From an uncultured Verrucomicrobia subdivision 3 bacterium (GTDB lineage Bacteria; Verrucomicrobiota; Verrucomicrobiia; Limisphaerales; UBA11358): a stretch of DNA of 38,519 bases. Of this stretch, positions 32,455-38,519 are shown in pieces (the stretch's first letter is position 1; every line of letters starts with the position of its first letter). The notes under the pieces are model-generated. The model worked only from the letters and a program-made list of their open reading frames with translations, ran no database searches and was not told where the DNA came from. Position numbers and translations under genes: made by a program. The stretch covers positions 1 to 38,519 of the forward strand of contig CAJAQO010000113.1 in NCBI GenBank assembly GCA_903944085.1. Direction: 5' to 3'.

Positions 32455-33219
32455 TCAGGATGCTGTCCCGATTCCAGAATCTGACAAATGATGCATACGG
32501 TGGGACAGCACCGCGAGGCCTTCCGCCAGATCTTCTTTCTGGTCCACCACGCCGGCGGGCAGTTGCAGTTTGCTGGGAGAAAAATTCCAAATGCCTTTGA
32601 TGCCGGCGCGCACCATCAGCGCGGCAGTTTCCTGCGCCGCCTGGGCCGGGACGGTCAAGACACCCAACTGGATTTTGCCGCGGCGGGCAAAGGGCATCAA
32701 CTGGTCAATCGCCTGCACCTTGCGGCCGTGAACCCATTTTCCAATGGTTCTCGGGTCGCGGTCGAAAGCCCCGATGATGCGAAAACCAAAATTTTGAAAA
32801 CCTTGGTAGCCCAGCAGCGCCGTGCCCAGGCTGCCCACGCCCACCAGCACCGCCGTGGTCTGGTTGTCCCAGCCCAAAAAGCGTTCGATGGCGGCAATTA
32901 ATTCGGTGATGCGAAAACCGATGCGCGGCGTGCCCACCGCGCCGGTCATGGCCAGATCCTTGCGCACAATCACCGGCTCCAGATGATGCACGCTGGCCAG
33001 CACCGTGCCGGAGACATGTTCCTGCCCGTCCGCCTGCAAGACGCGCAATAATTGCAGATAGGCGGGCATCCGTTTGACGCATGGCAGCCCGGCTTTGCGC
33101 GCGCCCGCCGCCTGGCGCAGCAGAGTTTCGGGAAAGGCGGATTTGTCACCGGCCGGAACCGCGGACCGGTTTGCCGGCGTCCGCGCGCGAAGATTCCGTG
33201 AGTGGCTTTGAGTCTTCAT
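32455..33219 (-). CDS. Rex-type redox-sensing repressor, paralogue 2
   Basis: 254 aa from MKTQSHSRNLRARTP, preceded by AAAGG at a good distance; the longer open frame would run through the operator at 33240. The winged-helix part is LPCVKRMPAYLQLLRVLQADGQEHVSGTVLAS...VIVRKDLAMTGAVGTPRIGF. The NAD(H)-binding Rossmann part follows: VLVGVGSLGTALLGYQGFQNFGFRIIGAFDRDP, LTVPAQAAQETAALMVRAGIKGIWNFSPSKLQLP and QKEDLAEGLAVLSH. Rex represses fermentation and hydrogenase genes when NADH is low. The N-terminal 40-residue tail is unusual, and the family Tyr after the wing (GxGY) is Phe here (RIGFRIT). Divergent from rex1. Confidence 0.87.
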   Translation of the reverse strand: MKTQSHSRNLRARTPANRSAVPAGDKSAFPETLLRQAAGARKAGLPCVKRMPAYLQLLRVLQADGQEHVSGTVLASVHHLEPVIVRKDLAMTGAVGTPRIGFRITELIAAIERFLGWDNQTTAVLVGVGSLGTALLGYQGFQNFGFRIIGAFDRDPRTIGKWVHGRKVQAIDQLMPFARRGKIQLGVLTVPAQAAQETAALMVRAGIKGIWNFSPSKLQLPAGVVDQKEDLAEGLAVLSHRMHHLSDSGIGTAS

Positions 33220-33239
33220 GTCGGCCTTTATGCTGATAC

Positions 33240-33255
33240 CGTTACCAAAATAACG
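33240..33255. promoter_or_regulatory. Candidate Rex operator ahead of rex2
   Basis: CGTTA-N6-TAACG is an inverted repeat close to the clostridial-type Rex consensus TTGTTA-N6-TAACAA. It lies 20 bp upstream of the rex2 ATG (33219), where a repressor would block its promoter. Confidence 0.5.
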
Positions 33256-33422
33256 ATATGAATTTAGCGGCTTCAACGCAACCCGCCTTTTAAACTCCGC
33301 CGCCACTCCACGTTGGGAACCAATATGGTTCGGCATTTAAACCCTCGTAAATATGGCAATTAAGCCGCATTTTACCGCCGCTAATCCAATCGAGATGCCA
33401 GACTACTACCTGCATTTTAAAT

Positions 33423-33448
33423 GACGCCAGCCGTTGACAAATGGCGTC
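33423..33448. promoter_or_regulatory. Inverted repeat over the rex1 promoter -35 box
   Basis: GACGCCA (33423-33429) and TGGCGTC (33442-33448) are exact complements flanking a TTGACA box (33434-33439). A TTAATA or TAATAG -10 candidate follows near 33457-33463 and the rex1 ATG is at 33494. A repressor binding this repeat would occlude the promoter; its sequence is not Rex-like. Confidence 0.4.
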
Positions 33449-33493
33449 CGTATGATTTAATAGAGAAAGTTTTATTGATATAACATTCACGAT

Positions 33494-34222
33494 ATGAATA
33501 TCAAAACCCAGTTTAATCGCGCCGACGGGACGAGTCCGAAGATCGTTTCGGAACCGACGCTCAAGCGGCTGCCGCTGTATCATCGCTTCCTGAAGGAATG
33601 GCAGGCGGCCGGGCATGAGACTGTTTCCTGCACGGATATCGGGCAAGATCTGGATTTGGACCCGACGCAGGTGCGCAAGGATTTGGAATCAGTCGGCGTG
33701 GCCGGCCGGCCGCGCATTGGCTATGTGCTTACGAATTTGACCGACGGATTGGAAAAATTCCTTGGCTGGAATAATGTGAACGACGCCTTCCTCGTCGGCG
33801 CGGGAAGCATGGGTTCGGCGTTGCTCGGCTATCGTAAATTCGAACAATGCGGTTTGAAGATTGTAAGTGCTTTTGATCTCGATCCTTCGAAAATCGGCAC
33901 GCGGATTCACGGTAAACATGTTTTGCCGCTGGAAAAACTGCCGAACCTCGCCCAGCGGATGCACATCCTCATCGGCATCATCACCGTGCCGGCGGCGGAG
34001 GCGCAGGCGGTGGCGGATTTGATGGTGGAAGGCGGTATTCGCGCGATCTGGAATTTTGCGCCAATTCGTTTGCACGCACCGGAACATGTAATCATCCACA
34101 ACGAGGATCTTTATTGTTCGCTGGCCGCCCTCTCACAAAAACTTTTCGCAACTCTCCAGAGTAAATCTGAAAAACCGGGACTCAAGCCCAAGGCCGCAAC
34201 GACTGCGGTGCCTTCAAATTAA
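33494..34222 (+). CDS. rex: Rex-type redox-sensing repressor, paralogue 1
   Basis: 242 aa. The N-terminal winged helix LKRLPLYHRFLKEWQAAGHETVSCTDIGQDLDLDPTQVRKDLESVGVAGRPRIGY matches Rex closely. The Rossmann domain has FLVGAGSMGSALLGYRKFEQCGLKIVSAFDLDP, IGIITVPAAEAQAVADLMVEGGIRAIWNFAPIRLHAPEHV and NEDLYCSLAALS, and retains the family Tyr (GY) and late Asp. It senses the NADH/NAD+ ratio. It lies 14 bp before the first hydrogenase gene and on the same strand, so it probably controls and is co-transcribed with the hydrogenase. Confidence 0.93.
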   Translation: MNIKTQFNRADGTSPKIVSEPTLKRLPLYHRFLKEWQAAGHETVSCTDIGQDLDLDPTQVRKDLESVGVAGRPRIGYVLTNLTDGLEKFLGWNNVNDAFLVGAGSMGSALLGYRKFEQCGLKIVSAFDLDPSKIGTRIHGKHVLPLEKLPNLAQRMHILIGIITVPAAEAQAVADLMVEGGIRAIWNFAPIRLHAPEHVIIHNEDLYCSLAALSQKLFATLQSKSEKPGLKPKAATTAVPSN

Positions 34223-34236
34223 CAACCAATTATTAA

Positions 34237-34740
34237 ATGCACGCTCAACCAAAGCCTGACTGCAATGGCAGAAAGTTTGTGAAAGTTTTCACAATCCTTG
34301 AAAAACACGGACGTAAACCCTCACGGCTGGTGCCGATTCTCCAGGCCGTGCAGGAGGAATACCGCTATTTGCCGAAGGAAGTTTTAACCTATGTCGCCAC
34401 GGCGCTGGATATTTCGCCGGCGCGCGTTTACGGCGTCGCCACGTTTTACTCGCACTTCGCGATTGAGCCCAAGGGCAAACACCTGGTCCGCCTGTGCGAC
34501 GGCACGGCGTGTCATGTGAAGGATTCCATCCCGATTCTCGATGCCATTCGCAAACGCCTCAAGCTCGAAGGCAAAAAAGTCACCACCGACGACATGCTGT
34601 TCACCGTCGAAACGGTCGCGTGCCTTGGCGCGTGCGGACTCGCGCCGGTCGTCGTGGTGGACGATCAGGTGCATGGCGCCATGACGCCCGCAACCGGCGT
34701 GAAACTCGTCGAAGAAATTATCGCCAGAGAACAATCGTAA
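34237..34740 (+). CDS. hydC: NuoE-like [2Fe-2S] subunit of an electron-bifurcating hydrogenase
   Basis: 167 aa thioredoxin-like [2Fe-2S] protein. KPSRLVPILQAVQEEYRYLPKEVLTYVATALDISPARVYGVATFYSHF is the family core. The cluster ligands are Cys87 and Cys92 (CDGTAC) and Cys129 and Cys133 (CLGAC). In HydABC and Hnd hydrogenases this small subunit (HydC/HndA) passes electrons to the NuoF-like flavoprotein. The stop overlaps the next start (TAATG). A perfect 18-bp Rex-type palindrome lies at codons 14-20. No Shine-Dalgarno precedes the ATG. A GTG start at codon 15 would lie inside the palindrome, so the ATG is kept. Confidence 0.92.
   Translation: MHAQPKPDCNGRKFVKVFTILEKHGRKPSRLVPILQAVQEEYRYLPKEVLTYVATALDISPARVYGVATFYSHFAIEPKGKHLVRLCDGTACHVKDSIPILDAIRKRLKLEGKKVTTDDMLFTVETVACLGACGLAPVVVVDDQVHGAMTPATGVKLVEEIIAREQS
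34277..34294. promoter_or_regulatory. Perfect Rex-type operator within the 5' end of hydC
   Basis: TTGTGAAAGTTTTCACAA is a perfect palindrome apart from the central GT and fits the Rex consensus TTGTGAA-N4-TTCACAA. It starts 40 bp inside the coding sequence and 55 bp after the rex1 stop. A bound repressor could block an internal promoter near the end of rex1 or act as a roadblock to the rex1-hyd transcript. Confidence 0.7.
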
Positions 34741-36623
34741 TGAATACTCAACTTATTTTGGATCCGGCCGCCGGCAATGGCGGGAAAACCCAGCGTCGCG
34801 TCATCGTCTGCGCCGGCACCGGCTGCGTGGCGAACGGCGCTTACAAAGTCATTGAAGCTTTCAATACGCAAATCGCAGCCGCCGGCATCAGCGTCACCAC
34901 GGAATTTAAAGCTGAAACCTCACAGCACGATTTGCGACTGAACAAGAGCGGCTGCCAGGGCTTCTGCCAGATGGGACCACTGGTCACGATTTTGCCGGAT
35001 GAAATTCTTTACAACAAAGTGAAAGTTGAGGACGTCGAGGAAATCGTTCGTGAAACGCTGGTCGGCGGCAAGGTGATTGACCGCTTACTTTATGTTGATC
35101 CGGCTACCAAGAAGCATTGCAAAGGCATTGATGATATTCCGTTTTACCAGCGCCAGCAGCGGTTTGTGCTGAAGGAATGCGGCACGATTGATCCCGAAAG
35201 CATTCAGGAATATTTGCATCACGGCGGTTACGCGGCGGCAAGAAAGGCGATTCTGAAAATGTCGCAGGAAGAGATCGTTCAGGAAATCACCAAGTCCGGC
35301 CTGCGCGGCCGTGGCGGTGGTGGCTTTCCGACCGGCCGCAAATGGGAGGCGGCGCGCACTCAGAAAAGCGTGAAGAAATATGTGATCTGCAACGCCGACG
35401 AAGGCGATCCCGGCGCGTTCATGAATCGCAGCGTGATGGAAGGCAATCCGCACAGCGTCATCGAAGGTTTGATGATTGCCGCGCGCGCCATCGGCGCGGA
35501 TGAGACGCTGGTTTATGTCCGCACGGAATATCCGCTCGCTGTCGCGCGCATGAAACGTGCTGTCGGAGACGCGCAGAAAATGGGTTTTCTCGGCGACCAT
35601 GTTTTTGGCTCCGGCCAGTCGCTGAACTGCGAGGTGATGGAAGGCGCGGGCGCGTTTGTCTGCGGCGAAGAAACCGCGATGATCGCCTCGATTGAAGGCC
35701 AGCGCGGGATGCCGCGGCCCAAGCCACCGTTCCCGGCGCAAAGCGGTTTGTGGGGCAAGCCCACGATCATCAATAACGTCGAGACGCTGGCGCACGTCGT
35801 CCGCATCATCAACCAAGGCGCGGATACGTTTCGCAAGCTTGGCTCAACCGCTTCGCCCGGCACGAAAACATTTGCGCTCACCGGCCACGTCGCCAACACC
35901 GGTCTGATCGAAGTTCCGTTCGGAACCACGCTGCGCGAAGTTGTTTTGAATATCGGCGGTGGCATCACCGACCGGCGCGGCAAAGTGAAGCCGAATGGTT
36001 TCAAGGCCGTGCAAATTGGCGGCCCATCGGGCGGTTGCCTGACGCAGGAACATCTGGATTTGCCGCTCGACTACGATTCGCTCCGCAGCGTTGGCGCGAT
36101 GGTCGGTTCCGGCGGACTCGTCGCGATGAATGAAAAAACGTGCATGGTCAGCATCGCGCGCTTCTTCATGGATTTCACCCAGCGCGAAAGCTGCGGCAAA
36201 TGCGTTTTGTGCCGCGAAGGAACGCGCCAGTTGCTCGCGATGTTGGACGACATCATCGAAGGCCGCGCCACCGGCGAAACGCTGGTGCTGATGGAGAAAC
36301 TCGCGATCGCCGTGCAAAAAGGTTCGCTCTGCGGCCTTGGAAAAACCGCGCCGAATCCGGTGCTCTCGACGCTGCGCTATTTCCGTGCGGAGTATGACGC
36401 GCACGTTTTCCACAAGCATTGTCCGACTGGCCAGTGCAAGGCGCTCGCCAAGCCGAGCATTGATCCCGCGAAATGCAAAGGCTGCATGGCTTGCGGCAAG
36501 AAATGTCCCGTCGGCGCGATCAGTGGCGAACGGAAACAAGCCCATGTGATTGATCAAATCAAGTGCATCGTCTGCGGCGTCTGCGCCGACACCTGCAAAC
36601 TCGATGCCGTCGTCGGTGTCTGA
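34740..36623 (+). CDS. hydB: NuoF-like FMN/NADH subunit of the bifurcating [FeFe] hydrogenase
   Basis: 627 aa. An N-terminal thioredoxin-like [2Fe-2S] domain has Cys24, Cys29, Cys72 and Cys76. The FMN/NADH core has GRGGGGFPTGRKW at 190-202 and NADEGDPGAFMNR at 218-230, followed by an SLBB segment. The NuoF-type [4Fe-4S] site is ESCGKCVLCREGT. Two C-terminal ferredoxin-like [4Fe-4S] clusters are CKGCMACGKKCPVGAI and CIVCGVCADTCKLDAV. This domain order is that of Thermotoga HydB / Desulfovibrio HndC, where flavin-based bifurcation links NADH, ferredoxin and H2. The ATG overlaps the hydC stop by one base; an earlier open frame belongs to antisense-free but out-of-frame text within hydC. Confidence 0.95.
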   Translation: MNTQLILDPAAGNGGKTQRRVIVCAGTGCVANGAYKVIEAFNTQIAAAGISVTTEFKAETSQHDLRLNKSGCQGFCQMGPLVTILPDEILYNKVKVEDVEEIVRETLVGGKVIDRLLYVDPATKKHCKGIDDIPFYQRQQRFVLKECGTIDPESIQEYLHHGGYAAARKAILKMSQEEIVQEITKSGLRGRGGGGFPTGRKWEAARTQKSVKKYVICNADEGDPGAFMNRSVMEGNPHSVIEGLMIAARAIGADETLVYVRTEYPLAVARMKRAVGDAQKMGFLGDHVFGSGQSLNCEVMEGAGAFVCGEETAMIASIEGQRGMPRPKPPFPAQSGLWGKPTIINNVETLAHVVRIINQGADTFRKLGSTASPGTKTFALTGHVANTGLIEVPFGTTLREVVLNIGGGITDRRGKVKPNGFKAVQIGGPSGGCLTQEHLDLPLDYDSLRSVGAMVGSGGLVAMNEKTCMVSIARFFMDFTQRESCGKCVLCREGTRQLLAMLDDIIEGRATGETLVLMEKLAIAVQKGSLCGLGKTAPNPVLSTLRYFRAEYDAHVFHKHCPTGQCKALAKPSIDPAKCKGCMACGKKCPVGAISGERKQAHVIDQIKCIVCGVCADTCKLDAVVGV

Positions 36624-36656: not shown

Positions 36657-38519
36657 ATGAGTGCTACAACAGCCACCGCAGTGAAAACCTTGAACATTGA
36701 CGGCATCGAAGTGCCCATCAACGGCGAGCGCAATTTGCTCGAACTGATCCGCAAGGCCGACATTGACCTGCCGACGTTTTGTTATCATTCCGACTTGAGC
36801 GTCTATGGCGCGTGCCGGTTGTGCCTGGTGGACATTGCCGGGCGCGGTATCCAAGGCGCATGTTCCACGCCGCCTGAACCGGGACTCAAAATCCGCACGC
36901 AGACTGCGGAAATCCGCGAGATCCGGAAAATTTCCGTCGAACTGCTGCTCGCCAATCACGAGCGTGAATGCACCACCTGCGGCAAGAGCGCCGCGTGCCA
37001 GTTGCAGGATGTCGCGCGCAAGCTCGGCATCGAGAAAGTCCGCTTCCAGCCCGTGCACAAGCAAATGCCGGTGGATCGCTCGTCGCCCTCGCTCGTGCGC
37101 GATCCGAACAAGTGCGTGCTGTGCGGCGACTGCGTGCGGTTCTGCTCGGAAATTCAGGGCATCGGCGCGATTGATTTCGCTTATCGCGGCCACGACGCGG
37201 CGGTGCTGCCGGCGTTCGGCAAGGATTTGGGCGAAGGCGAATGCATCAACTGCGGCCAGTGCGCCGCCGTGTGCCCGACCGGCGCGCTGACACCGAAGCA
37301 GGAAATTGACGAAGTCTGGAAGGCGCTCGGCGATCCGACCAAAACCGTCGTGGTGCAAATCGCGCCGGCGGTGCGTGTCGCCATCGGCGAACTTTTCGGA
37401 ATGCCGCCCGGCGAATCCACGCGCGGCCAGATGGTCGCGGCTTTGAAACGGCTCGGCTTCGACCGCGTTTATGACACGGCGTTCAGCGCCGACTTGACGG
37501 TGATTGAGGAAGCGAATGAATTTTTGGGTCGCAAAACCAAGGGCGGAAAGCTGCCGCTGTTCACCAGTTGCTGTCCGGGCTGGGTGAAATTCGCGGAACA
37601 GTATTTTCCCGAACTGCTGCCTAATTTGTCCACCTGCAAATCGCCGCAGCAGATGCTCGGCGCGCTGGTCAAGGAATTGTTGCCGGCGGAACTCGGCGTG
37701 GAGAAAAAGAATCTCGTGATGGTTTCCATCATGCCCTGCACGGCGAAAAAATTCGAAGCCAAGCGCCCGGAATTTGCGCAGGACGGCATTGCGGAAGTGG
37801 ATCACGTTTTGACGACGCAGGAACTGGCGCGCATGATCGAGGAAGCCGGTTTGCGCTTCACGAAATTGCAGCCGGAATCGTTCGACATGCCGATGGGTTT
37901 CAAGACGGGCGCGGGCGTGATTTTCGGAAATTCCGGCGGCGTGAGCGAAGCAGTGTTGCGTTACGCCTCGGAAAAAGTCACCGGCAAAAAATTGTTGAAT
38001 CCCGACATCCATGCCGTCCGCGGCGAGGATGGCTTGCGCATCGTCGAAGTGCCGGTGGGCGACATCACGTTGAAACTCGGCATCGTCCACGGTTTGAAAA
38101 ACGCCCGCACGCTCGCGGAAAAAGCGCGGCGCGGCAAGTGCGATCTCGACATTATCGAAGTGATGGCGTGTCCCGGCGGCTGCATCGGCGGCGCGGGCCA
38201 GCCGGTGTCGCGCGATCCCGACATCCGCAAGCTCCGCACGCGCGGACTTTACGACGTGGACAAAAATATGGAACTCCACAAGTCGCAGGAAAATCATTTC
38301 GTCACGGAATGCTACCAGCGGCATCTCGGCGAGATCGGCGGCAAGAACGCGCATCGTTTGCTGCACACGCATTATCACAACCGCCGCCGCATCGCCGGCG
38401 AAACCATCGAATTGGGCGACGGTCCGGCGGCGGAAAAGGTGAAGGTCAATGTCTGCACTGGCACAAATTGTTTTGTGAAAGGTTCGCAGCACATTTTGCA
38501 CGAGCTGCTCGACCAGGTG
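36657..38519 (+). CDS. hydA: [FeFe] hydrogenase catalytic subunit, 3' end outside window
   Basis: 621 codons are visible with no stop. The N-terminal [2Fe-2S] ligands are Cys42, 53, 56 and 69. The His-Cys3 [4Fe-4S] site is His101, Cys105, 108 and 114. Two [4Fe-4S] clusters use Cys153/156/159/163 and Cys196/199/202/206. The H-cluster motifs are complete: TSCCPGW (Cys305 for proton transfer, Cys306), IMPCTAKKFEAKR (Cys361) and MACPGGCIGGAGQP (Cys505, Cys509). The protein continues into a second thioredoxin-like [2Fe-2S] domain, KVNVCTGTNCFVKGSQHILHELL, with Cys600 and Cys605 before the edge. Such a C-terminal domain marks the HydA of trimeric bifurcating enzymes such as that of Thermotoga. It starts 33 bp after hydB. 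Confidence 0.96.
   Translation, partial: MSATTATAVKTLNIDGIEVPINGERNLLELIRKADIDLPTFCYHSDLSVYGACRLCLVDIAGRGIQGACSTPPEPGLKIRTQTAEIREIRKISVELLLANHERECTTCGKSAACQLQDVARKLGIEKVRFQPVHKQMPVDRSSPSLVRDPNKCVLCGDCVRFCSEIQGIGAIDFAYRGHDAAVLPAFGKDLGEGECINCGQCAAVCPTGALTPKQEIDEVWKALGDPTKTVVVQIAPAVRVAIGELFGMPPGESTRGQMVAALKRLGFDRVYDTAFSADLTVIEEANEFLGRKTKGGKLPLFTSCCPGWVKFAEQYFPELLPNLSTCKSPQQMLGALVKELLPAELGVEKKNLVMVSIMPCTAKKFEAKRPEFAQDGIAEVDHVLTTQELARMIEEAGLRFTKLQPESFDMPMGFKTGAGVIFGNSGGVSEAVLRYASEKVTGKKLLNPDIHAVRGEDGLRIVEVPVGDITLKLGIVHGLKNARTLAEKARRGKCDLDIIEVMACPGGCIGGAGQPVSRDPDIRKLRTRGLYDVDKNMELHKSQENHFVTECYQRHLGEIGGKNAHRLLHTHYHNRRRIAGETIELGDGPAAEKVKVNVCTGTNCFVKGSQHILHELLDQV

Follow-up and report, generated by a model that had tools for sequence, protein, structure and literature searches.

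A conserved head-to-head pair of Rex-family repressors next to a trimeric [FeFe] hydrogenase operon: a putative local redox switch in Limisphaerales

The window (the whole analysed stretch of 38,519 nucleotides, contig CAJAQO010000113.1) belongs to the 5.79 Mb draft genome, in 335 contigs, of an uncultured Verrucomicrobia subdivision 3 bacterium of the order Limisphaerales. Close to the right end of the window, two genes of the Rex family, rex1 and rex2, are encoded next to each other, and rex1 is followed by hydrogenase genes. The region contains the following features.

32455-33219, minus strand: rex2, Rex-family repressor, 254 aa from the ATG at 33219 (PF06971 and PF02629; NF003994, 255 bits)
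33237-33258, no strand assigned: predicted operator O2, TATCGTTATTTTGGTAACGGTA (given on the rex2 strand), second-best site in the window
33434-33461, plus strand: rex1-hyd promoter, TTGACA (33434-33439), 16 bp, TTTAAT (33456-33461), conserved in nine aligned divergent loci
33459-33480, no strand assigned: predicted operator O1', AATAGAGAAAGTTTTATTGATA, third-best site in the window
33473-33494, no strand assigned: predicted operator O1, TATTGATATAACATTCACGATA, best site in the window, conserved
33494-34222, plus strand: rex1, Rex-family repressor, 242 aa (PF06971 and PF02629; NF003994, 289 bits)
34237-34740, plus strand: HydC/NuoE-like [2Fe-2S] subunit with a thioredoxin fold (PF01257, E=4.8e-49)
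34277-34294, no strand assigned: predicted Rex operator of the canonical type, TTGTGAAAGTTTTCACAA, within codons 14-20 of nuoE/hydC, the first of the hydrogenase genes
34740-36623, plus strand: HydB/NuoF-like NADH-, FMN- and Fe-S-binding subunit (PF01512, PF10589, Fer4)
36657-38519, plus strand: HydA, catalytic subunit of a group A [FeFe] hydrogenase, ending at the contig edge (PF02906, E=3e-96; PF02256)

Judged by the defining protein tests, Rex1 and Rex2 are Rex repressors. The scores of both are far above the cut-off of the NCBIfam Rex model NF003994 (130 bits), both combine the winged-helix N-terminal domain with the Rossmann domain at scores exceeding the Pfam cut-offs, and both match solved Rex structures (E about 1e-33 to 1e-37). 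The NAD-binding loop GxGxxG and the acidic residue after beta-2 are intact in the two proteins (VGVGSLG/FDRD and VGAGSMG/FDLD), as is the VRKD recognition motif; the two domains, the loop and the recognition motif are features shared with the Rex proteins of T. aquaticus, T. maritima, T. ethanolicus and B. subtilis. At 46% identity over 197 aa, the two genes are the diverged paralogues that the preliminary description took them for. The open frame of rex2 extends to 33336 (ORF 32455-33336) but the start is likely the ATG at 33219 because the relatives align mostly from there and because of the operator at 33237-33258. The AlphaFold2 model of Rex2 (pLDDT 86.5) resembles the DNA-bound Rex structures 3wgi, 3ikt and 7wb3, with the winged helix-turn-helix and the Rossmann fold intact; given this match and the retained recognition motif, the possibility that Rex2 is a relic without DNA binding was rejected.

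Known Rex systems differ from this one in the wing, in the operator and in having no such paired layout. The wing of the subfamily to which Rex1 and Rex2 belong reads G-x-P-R/K-x-G-Y/F, compared with the usual G-T-R-G-x-G-Y; both proteins have Pro-Arg and lack Arg-Gly, and the Pro-Arg/Lys pair is common to nearly the whole wider subfamily. The wing residues Arg60 and Gly61 of T. maritima Rex touch the minor groove of the operator, and such Arg-Gly contacts are common, albeit not universal, among the solved Rex proteins (PMC8836258). A further difference is seen in the Arg16-Tyr98-Asp188 triad (T. aquaticus numbering), which is complete in Rex1 (Arg at the switch position in 11 of 13 rex1 genes), whereas at the Arg16 position all 15 rex2 genes encode Gln, with Tyr kept and Asp kept in 14 of 15. 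This substitution was considered as proof that Rex2 has lost NADH sensing, an idea that was dropped because the position is variable across the subfamily (H, T, N, P, S) and because T. maritima Rex, with Met at the equivalent position, switches nonetheless (PMC6125430). Rex2, with Gln at this position, may still sense NADH.

As had been noted in the preliminary description, the hydrogenase comes directly after rex1: the stop codon of rex1 is separated by 14 bp from the NuoE-like gene, which is followed by the NuoF-like gene and hydA, so that the trimeric HydABC set forms one operon. The HydA translation contains all three H-cluster motifs (TSCCPGW, MPCTAKK and ACPGGCIGG) and scores 494 bits with TIGR02512; with the group A6 model NF040763 it scores 755 bits against a cut-off of 765, the protein being truncated by the contig end. 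With NuoE-, NuoF- and HydA-type proteins encoded together, the operon resembles those of electron-bifurcating or otherwise NAD-linked trimeric HydABC enzymes. The 3' end of hydA lies beyond the contig, and A6 is a candidate subgroup, the NF040763 score being just under the cut-off.

The known Rex regulator binds the canonical operator TTGTGA-N6-TCACAA. At the own promoter of the rex pair this sequence was not found; instead, the variant TATCG-N12-CGATA, a predicted 22-bp operator, is present at both promoters. When the intergenic regions of the nine divergent loci are aligned, TTGAC of the -35 element is conserved in eight of them (with TGAC conserved), and a -10 element rich in T and A comes next. 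An inverted repeat follows immediately after this promoter. In the window, O1 lies just downstream of the -10 box and abuts the rex1 ATG, O1' overlaps both the -10 box and, by one octamer (a 14-bp offset), O1, and O2 sits 17 bp ahead of the rex2 ATG and has counterparts in four loci (L050, L052, L062 and L176). Thus, the two copies do face away from each other and share a promoter region, as originally described, with conserved operators between them. A site matrix trained solely on loci with one Rex gene, from which the window was left out, ranks O1 (33473), O2 (33237) and O1' (33459) first, second and third over the 38.5 kb, separated by a gap in score from all further sites, and in the held-out genome G659 the four top sites of 10 kb are all located between rex1 and rex2. 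Judged by these matrices, O2 favours the rex2-type half-site TATCGTTA, whereas O1 scores about equally with those derived from rex1 and rex2.

The same operator is predicted in most of the rex1 loci. Allowing at most one mismatch (at least 9 of 10 positions), TATCG-N12-CGATA was found upstream in all but one of the 12 non-redundant rex1 genes (11 of 12; mean of 0.03 for 59 permuted half-sites used as control), with a peak at spacer 12, and ahead of 6 of 15 rex2 genes (permuted mean 0.03). Part of the latter matches are the shared rex1 operator; rex2 has its own in L050, L052, L062 and the window, and none was seen in the rex2 loci L060 and L061. Among other genes of the subfamily, 7 of 49 have such a site within 420 bp (permuted mean 0.41). 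In loci with rex1 only, the site is a near-perfect inverted repeat of TATCGAGAAAT and ATTTCTCGATA, which differs from the canonical TTGTGAAAT and ATTTCACAA by TCGA in place of TTGT and by an outer TA. The nearest published half-site that was encountered is in the T. maritima TM0201 operator ATTTGAGAAATTTATCACAAAA (PMC8836258). A literature search, which did not extend to the principal comparative analysis of Rex regulons (Ravcheev 2012), returned nothing relevant on TATCGATA-type Rex sites, and the TATCG-type operator may have been described before.

The sites are often extended as TATCGATA-like octamers at 14-bp intervals, an offset that recurs across loci, such that neighbouring sites have one octamer in common. 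Because TCGA is self-complementary, part of the count at the 14-bp offset is automatic, and the flanking octamers were therefore scored directly: at offset -14, the mean match to TATCGATA is 4.76 of 8 positions in 17 loci (background 2.02, sd 0.70) and 4.5 in 6 loci that belong to other phyla or classes (background 2.26, sd 0.71). Arrays are common but not universal, as L047 has a lone single site. At 33459-33494 in the window, octamers resembling TATCGATA occur every 14 bp, and L057 contains up to five in a row. The 14-bp-spaced octamers may represent overlapping dimer sites.

A third Rex gene, rex3, is encoded on contig C279 of the same genome. It belongs to the housekeeping, canonical type that most Rex-bearing genomes of the order carry (about 180-206 bits to NF003994), and hence the rex1/rex2 pair comes on top of the housekeeping Rex. 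Rex3 retains the Arg-Gly wing pair and falls apart from rex1 and rex2 in the tree, and TATCG-N12-CGATA was found ahead of none of 17 rex3 genes. The canonical site inside nuoE is one of 5 perfect canonical matches in 5.8 Mb; others precede nuoABC and a cupredoxin-like/CtaA gene set. Six relatives conserve the nuoE site at the codon level, and it lies in a stretch of 8 identical codons, the longest of the gene (shuffle P=0.006). The pair loci L056-L058, which are more distant, lack it. Going by site predictions, the visible division is between Rex1 and Rex2, with local TATCG operators, and Rex3, whose canonical operators lie at respiratory genes and, in one case, within the hydrogenase operon.

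The expectation that Rex is usually single, voiced in the preliminary description, holds only in part: the genome of the window has three, and about thirty of 387 genomes of the phylum have at least two matches of the rex1/rex2 subfamily. Within the order, Rex genes of the rex1/rex2 type are present in 17 of 320 genomes; rex1 and rex2 are adjacent in nine of these 320, always divergently and in no other orientation, so that the arrangement is indeed conserved. In G181, both genes are present but unlinked; rex1 occurs alone in four genomes and rex2 alone in three. A tenth divergent pair was identified in L059, from a metagenome-assembled genome labelled Spartobacteria; the hydrogenase linked to this pair is of the NiFe Hox type, and its genes lie downstream of rex2. 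The rex1 gene of this locus (L059:6047-6697), with cbiM/cbiQ cobalt/nickel uptake genes alongside, has a broken recognition motif (VQED for VRKD) and looks degenerate by this sign. In another genome, G663 (UBA693; L060 and L062), there are two rex2-type genes and no rex1. In the rex-hydABC operons of Desulfobulbus, Phycisphaerae and Endomicrobium (L077, L086, L065 and L081), the NuoE-NuoF-HydA genes are likewise immediately preceded by a Rex gene of this subfamily, with the operator of the window in L077 and L065; these loci, in contrast to the window, have one Rex only and lack the divergent rex2. Two Rex paralogues, one of them linked to the trimeric hydrogenase, with a second Rex beside hydrogenase genes, are presumably found in Thermotoga maritima as well; to our knowledge, these have not been described as a head-to-head pair, and a literature search yielded nothing relevant on organisms with two Rex proteins or on TM1427.

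In a 116-row tree, within the limits set by long branches and a quick search, rex1 forms a clade with the Desulfobulbus and Granulicella Rexes that precede NuoE-NuoF-HydA (SH-aLRT 96), and rex2 comprises a 15-row clade (SH-aLRT 100) neighbouring Kiritimatiellota Rexes (88). When rex1 and rex2 are constrained to a single clade, the tree is worse by 39 log units (AU p=0.013). Because of this placement and the AU rejection, the pair is best seen, as far as the tree goes, as two lineages that were joined and then kept, not as a local duplicate; a recent duplication was rejected on the same grounds, and rex2 is not a recent, non-conserved copy.

Rex is a textbook sensor of NADH that represses in its NAD+-bound or apo form and is released by NADH. 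Known Rex systems place palindromic operators at the promoters of NADH-disposal genes and repress trimeric [FeFe] hydrogenase (PMC8579813, PMC8836258), as in Caldicellulosiruptor, where the repression is under NADH control (PMC8579813). Against this background, the locus is probably an autoregulatory switch through which the NAD(H) redox state locally controls a trimeric, NAD-linked [FeFe] hydrogenase, with two specialised Rex proteins and an input from the housekeeping Rex. The observed genes, fold, phylogeny and conserved positions of promoter and operators lead to an account in which DNA binding by Rex1 and Rex2, repression, release by NADH and the choice of site by each Rex would be as follows. 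The gene rex1 is the first of the rex1-hydCBA operon and rex2 a divergent one-gene unit. The Rex subfamily with the P-R/K wing would recognise TATCG-N12-CGATA rather than the canonical operator. At a low NADH/NAD+ ratio, dimers of Rex1, Rex2 or both would occupy O1/O1', covering the -10 box and the start of the rex1-hyd transcript, as well as O2 before rex2, so that both promoters are held down; a rise in NADH would release them, and the hydrogenase would be made and dispose of NADH as H2, relieving the excess as expected from established Rex biology. Because the same octamer core is expected for both proteins and O1 and O1' share an octamer, Rex1 and Rex2 could compete or substitute for each other at the operators. 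From its preferred half-site at O2, Rex2 would most likely set its own level and tune the hydrogenase promoter. Rex3, with canonical sites at complex I and haem-A/oxidase genes, could provide a second input via the site inside hydC. Points that count against this account are the Gln at the switch position of Rex2, the rex2 loci L060 and L061, where no operator was seen, and the small share (7 of 49) of other subfamily genes with the motif.

Several alternatives to such a switch have to be weighed. The adjacency and 46% identity of rex1 and rex2 would fit a tandem duplication followed by inversion beside the hydrogenase, an origin that is very unlikely given the different neighbours of the two genes in the tree and the AU test, with the long branches and quick search as limits. 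The view of Rex2 as a superfluous copy, or one in decay, that has no function can be regarded as extremely improbable: some genomes with rex1-hyd lack it (G119, G129 and G645), but its 15-member clade conserves the fold and the recognition motif, several loci provide it with an operator of its own, and in L059 the gene that looks degenerate is rex1, not rex2. Heterodimers of Rex1 and Rex2, in which operator preference or NADH affinity would be mixed, raised as an option in the preliminary description, would be consistent with the membership of both proteins in one subfamily, their co-inheritance around the same intergenic region and the even score of O1 under the two matrices. However, rex1 alone (L045, L047 and L049) and rex2 alone (L050, L055 and L062) keep intact palindromic operators, so that neither protein needs the other, and the separate ancestry of the two speaks against an obligate heterodimer; this reading seems distinctly unlikely.

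The other option raised originally, namely a division of NADH sensing in which Rex1 serves the hydrogenase and Rex2 fermentation genes located elsewhere (propionate, AdhE), draws on genomes with rex2 only. There, the motif precedes rex2 at the head of carboxyltransferase and methylmalonyl-CoA mutase genes (L062 and L050/L165), with MeaB additionally in L062; in L055, rex2 follows adhE opposite a NuoEF/HoxU-like operon, and a perfect 22-bp palindrome, TATCGTTATAAAAATAACGATA, lies between the two units (L055:2795-2816). In the genome of the window, such a division is not visible. By pattern alone, with one mismatch allowed across the 335-contig draft, the only clear promoter-proximal TATCG operator is in the rex1-rex2 intergenic region, nearly all other matches examined fall inside reading frames, and rex2 is monocistronic, facing a convergent gene. 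The division by target is, for this genome, unlikely, and the local switch with both Rex proteins on the shared promoter region is the preferred reading; altogether, the pair looks like a real, conserved local redox switch and not like a recent gene duplicate.

The motif recurs ahead of Rex genes of the same subfamily in other phyla. In Kiritimatiellota, it lies ahead of rex, of a small operon for an [FeFe] hydrogenase and of a gene set that includes a class II aldolase and an iron alcohol dehydrogenase; in Kiritimatiellota and relatives, the right spacer gives 9 matches in 4 of 7 genomes, compared with 3 scattered matches in 2 of 7 genomes when the spacer is one base short, a result that acts as a control for the spacing. 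In L110, the motif lies between rex2 and nuoEF, which face each other. By annotation, the genes linked to the motif in the rex2-only and Kiritimatiellota loci are NADH-disposal functions, as expected of Rex. The gene sets with rex2 in first position and predicted operators of their own (L062:6992-14630 and L165:12251-18912) are likely propionate (methylmalonyl-CoA) operons.

A broader proposal, which is tentative and somewhat doubtful, is that the P-R/K-wing subfamily reads its own code in several phyla, in the form of TATCGATA-like octamers every 14 bp with an octamer common to neighbouring dimers, and that, in Verrucomicrobiota of the Limisphaerales type, competition on one such array between two paralogues with different origins yields a graded NADH response of the hydrogenase, to which the canonical Rex adds a third input. 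Rex proteins are used in biosensors and in the engineering of hydrogen and ethanol production. A different wing with a matching different operator offers a clean specificity swap to test, and the right motif would permit regulon prediction in Verrucomicrobiota, Kiritimatiellota, Spirochaetota and Desulfobulbus. A genome with three Rex proteins and both operator types on one hydrogenase operon is, moreover, a natural test of layered redox sensors in bacteria.

The same genome encodes a second [FeFe] hydrogenase (L163:433-3648, contig C268), a 1072 aa fusion protein that includes a GltD-like NAD(P)H-oxidoreductase domain; in G084 (L054), rex1 is followed by a similar gene. A third [FeFe] hydrogenase-type protein of 585 aa (L162:3199-8727, contig C277) adjoins the HydF maturase and a SpoIIE-type phosphatase and looks like a regulatory hydrogenase module.
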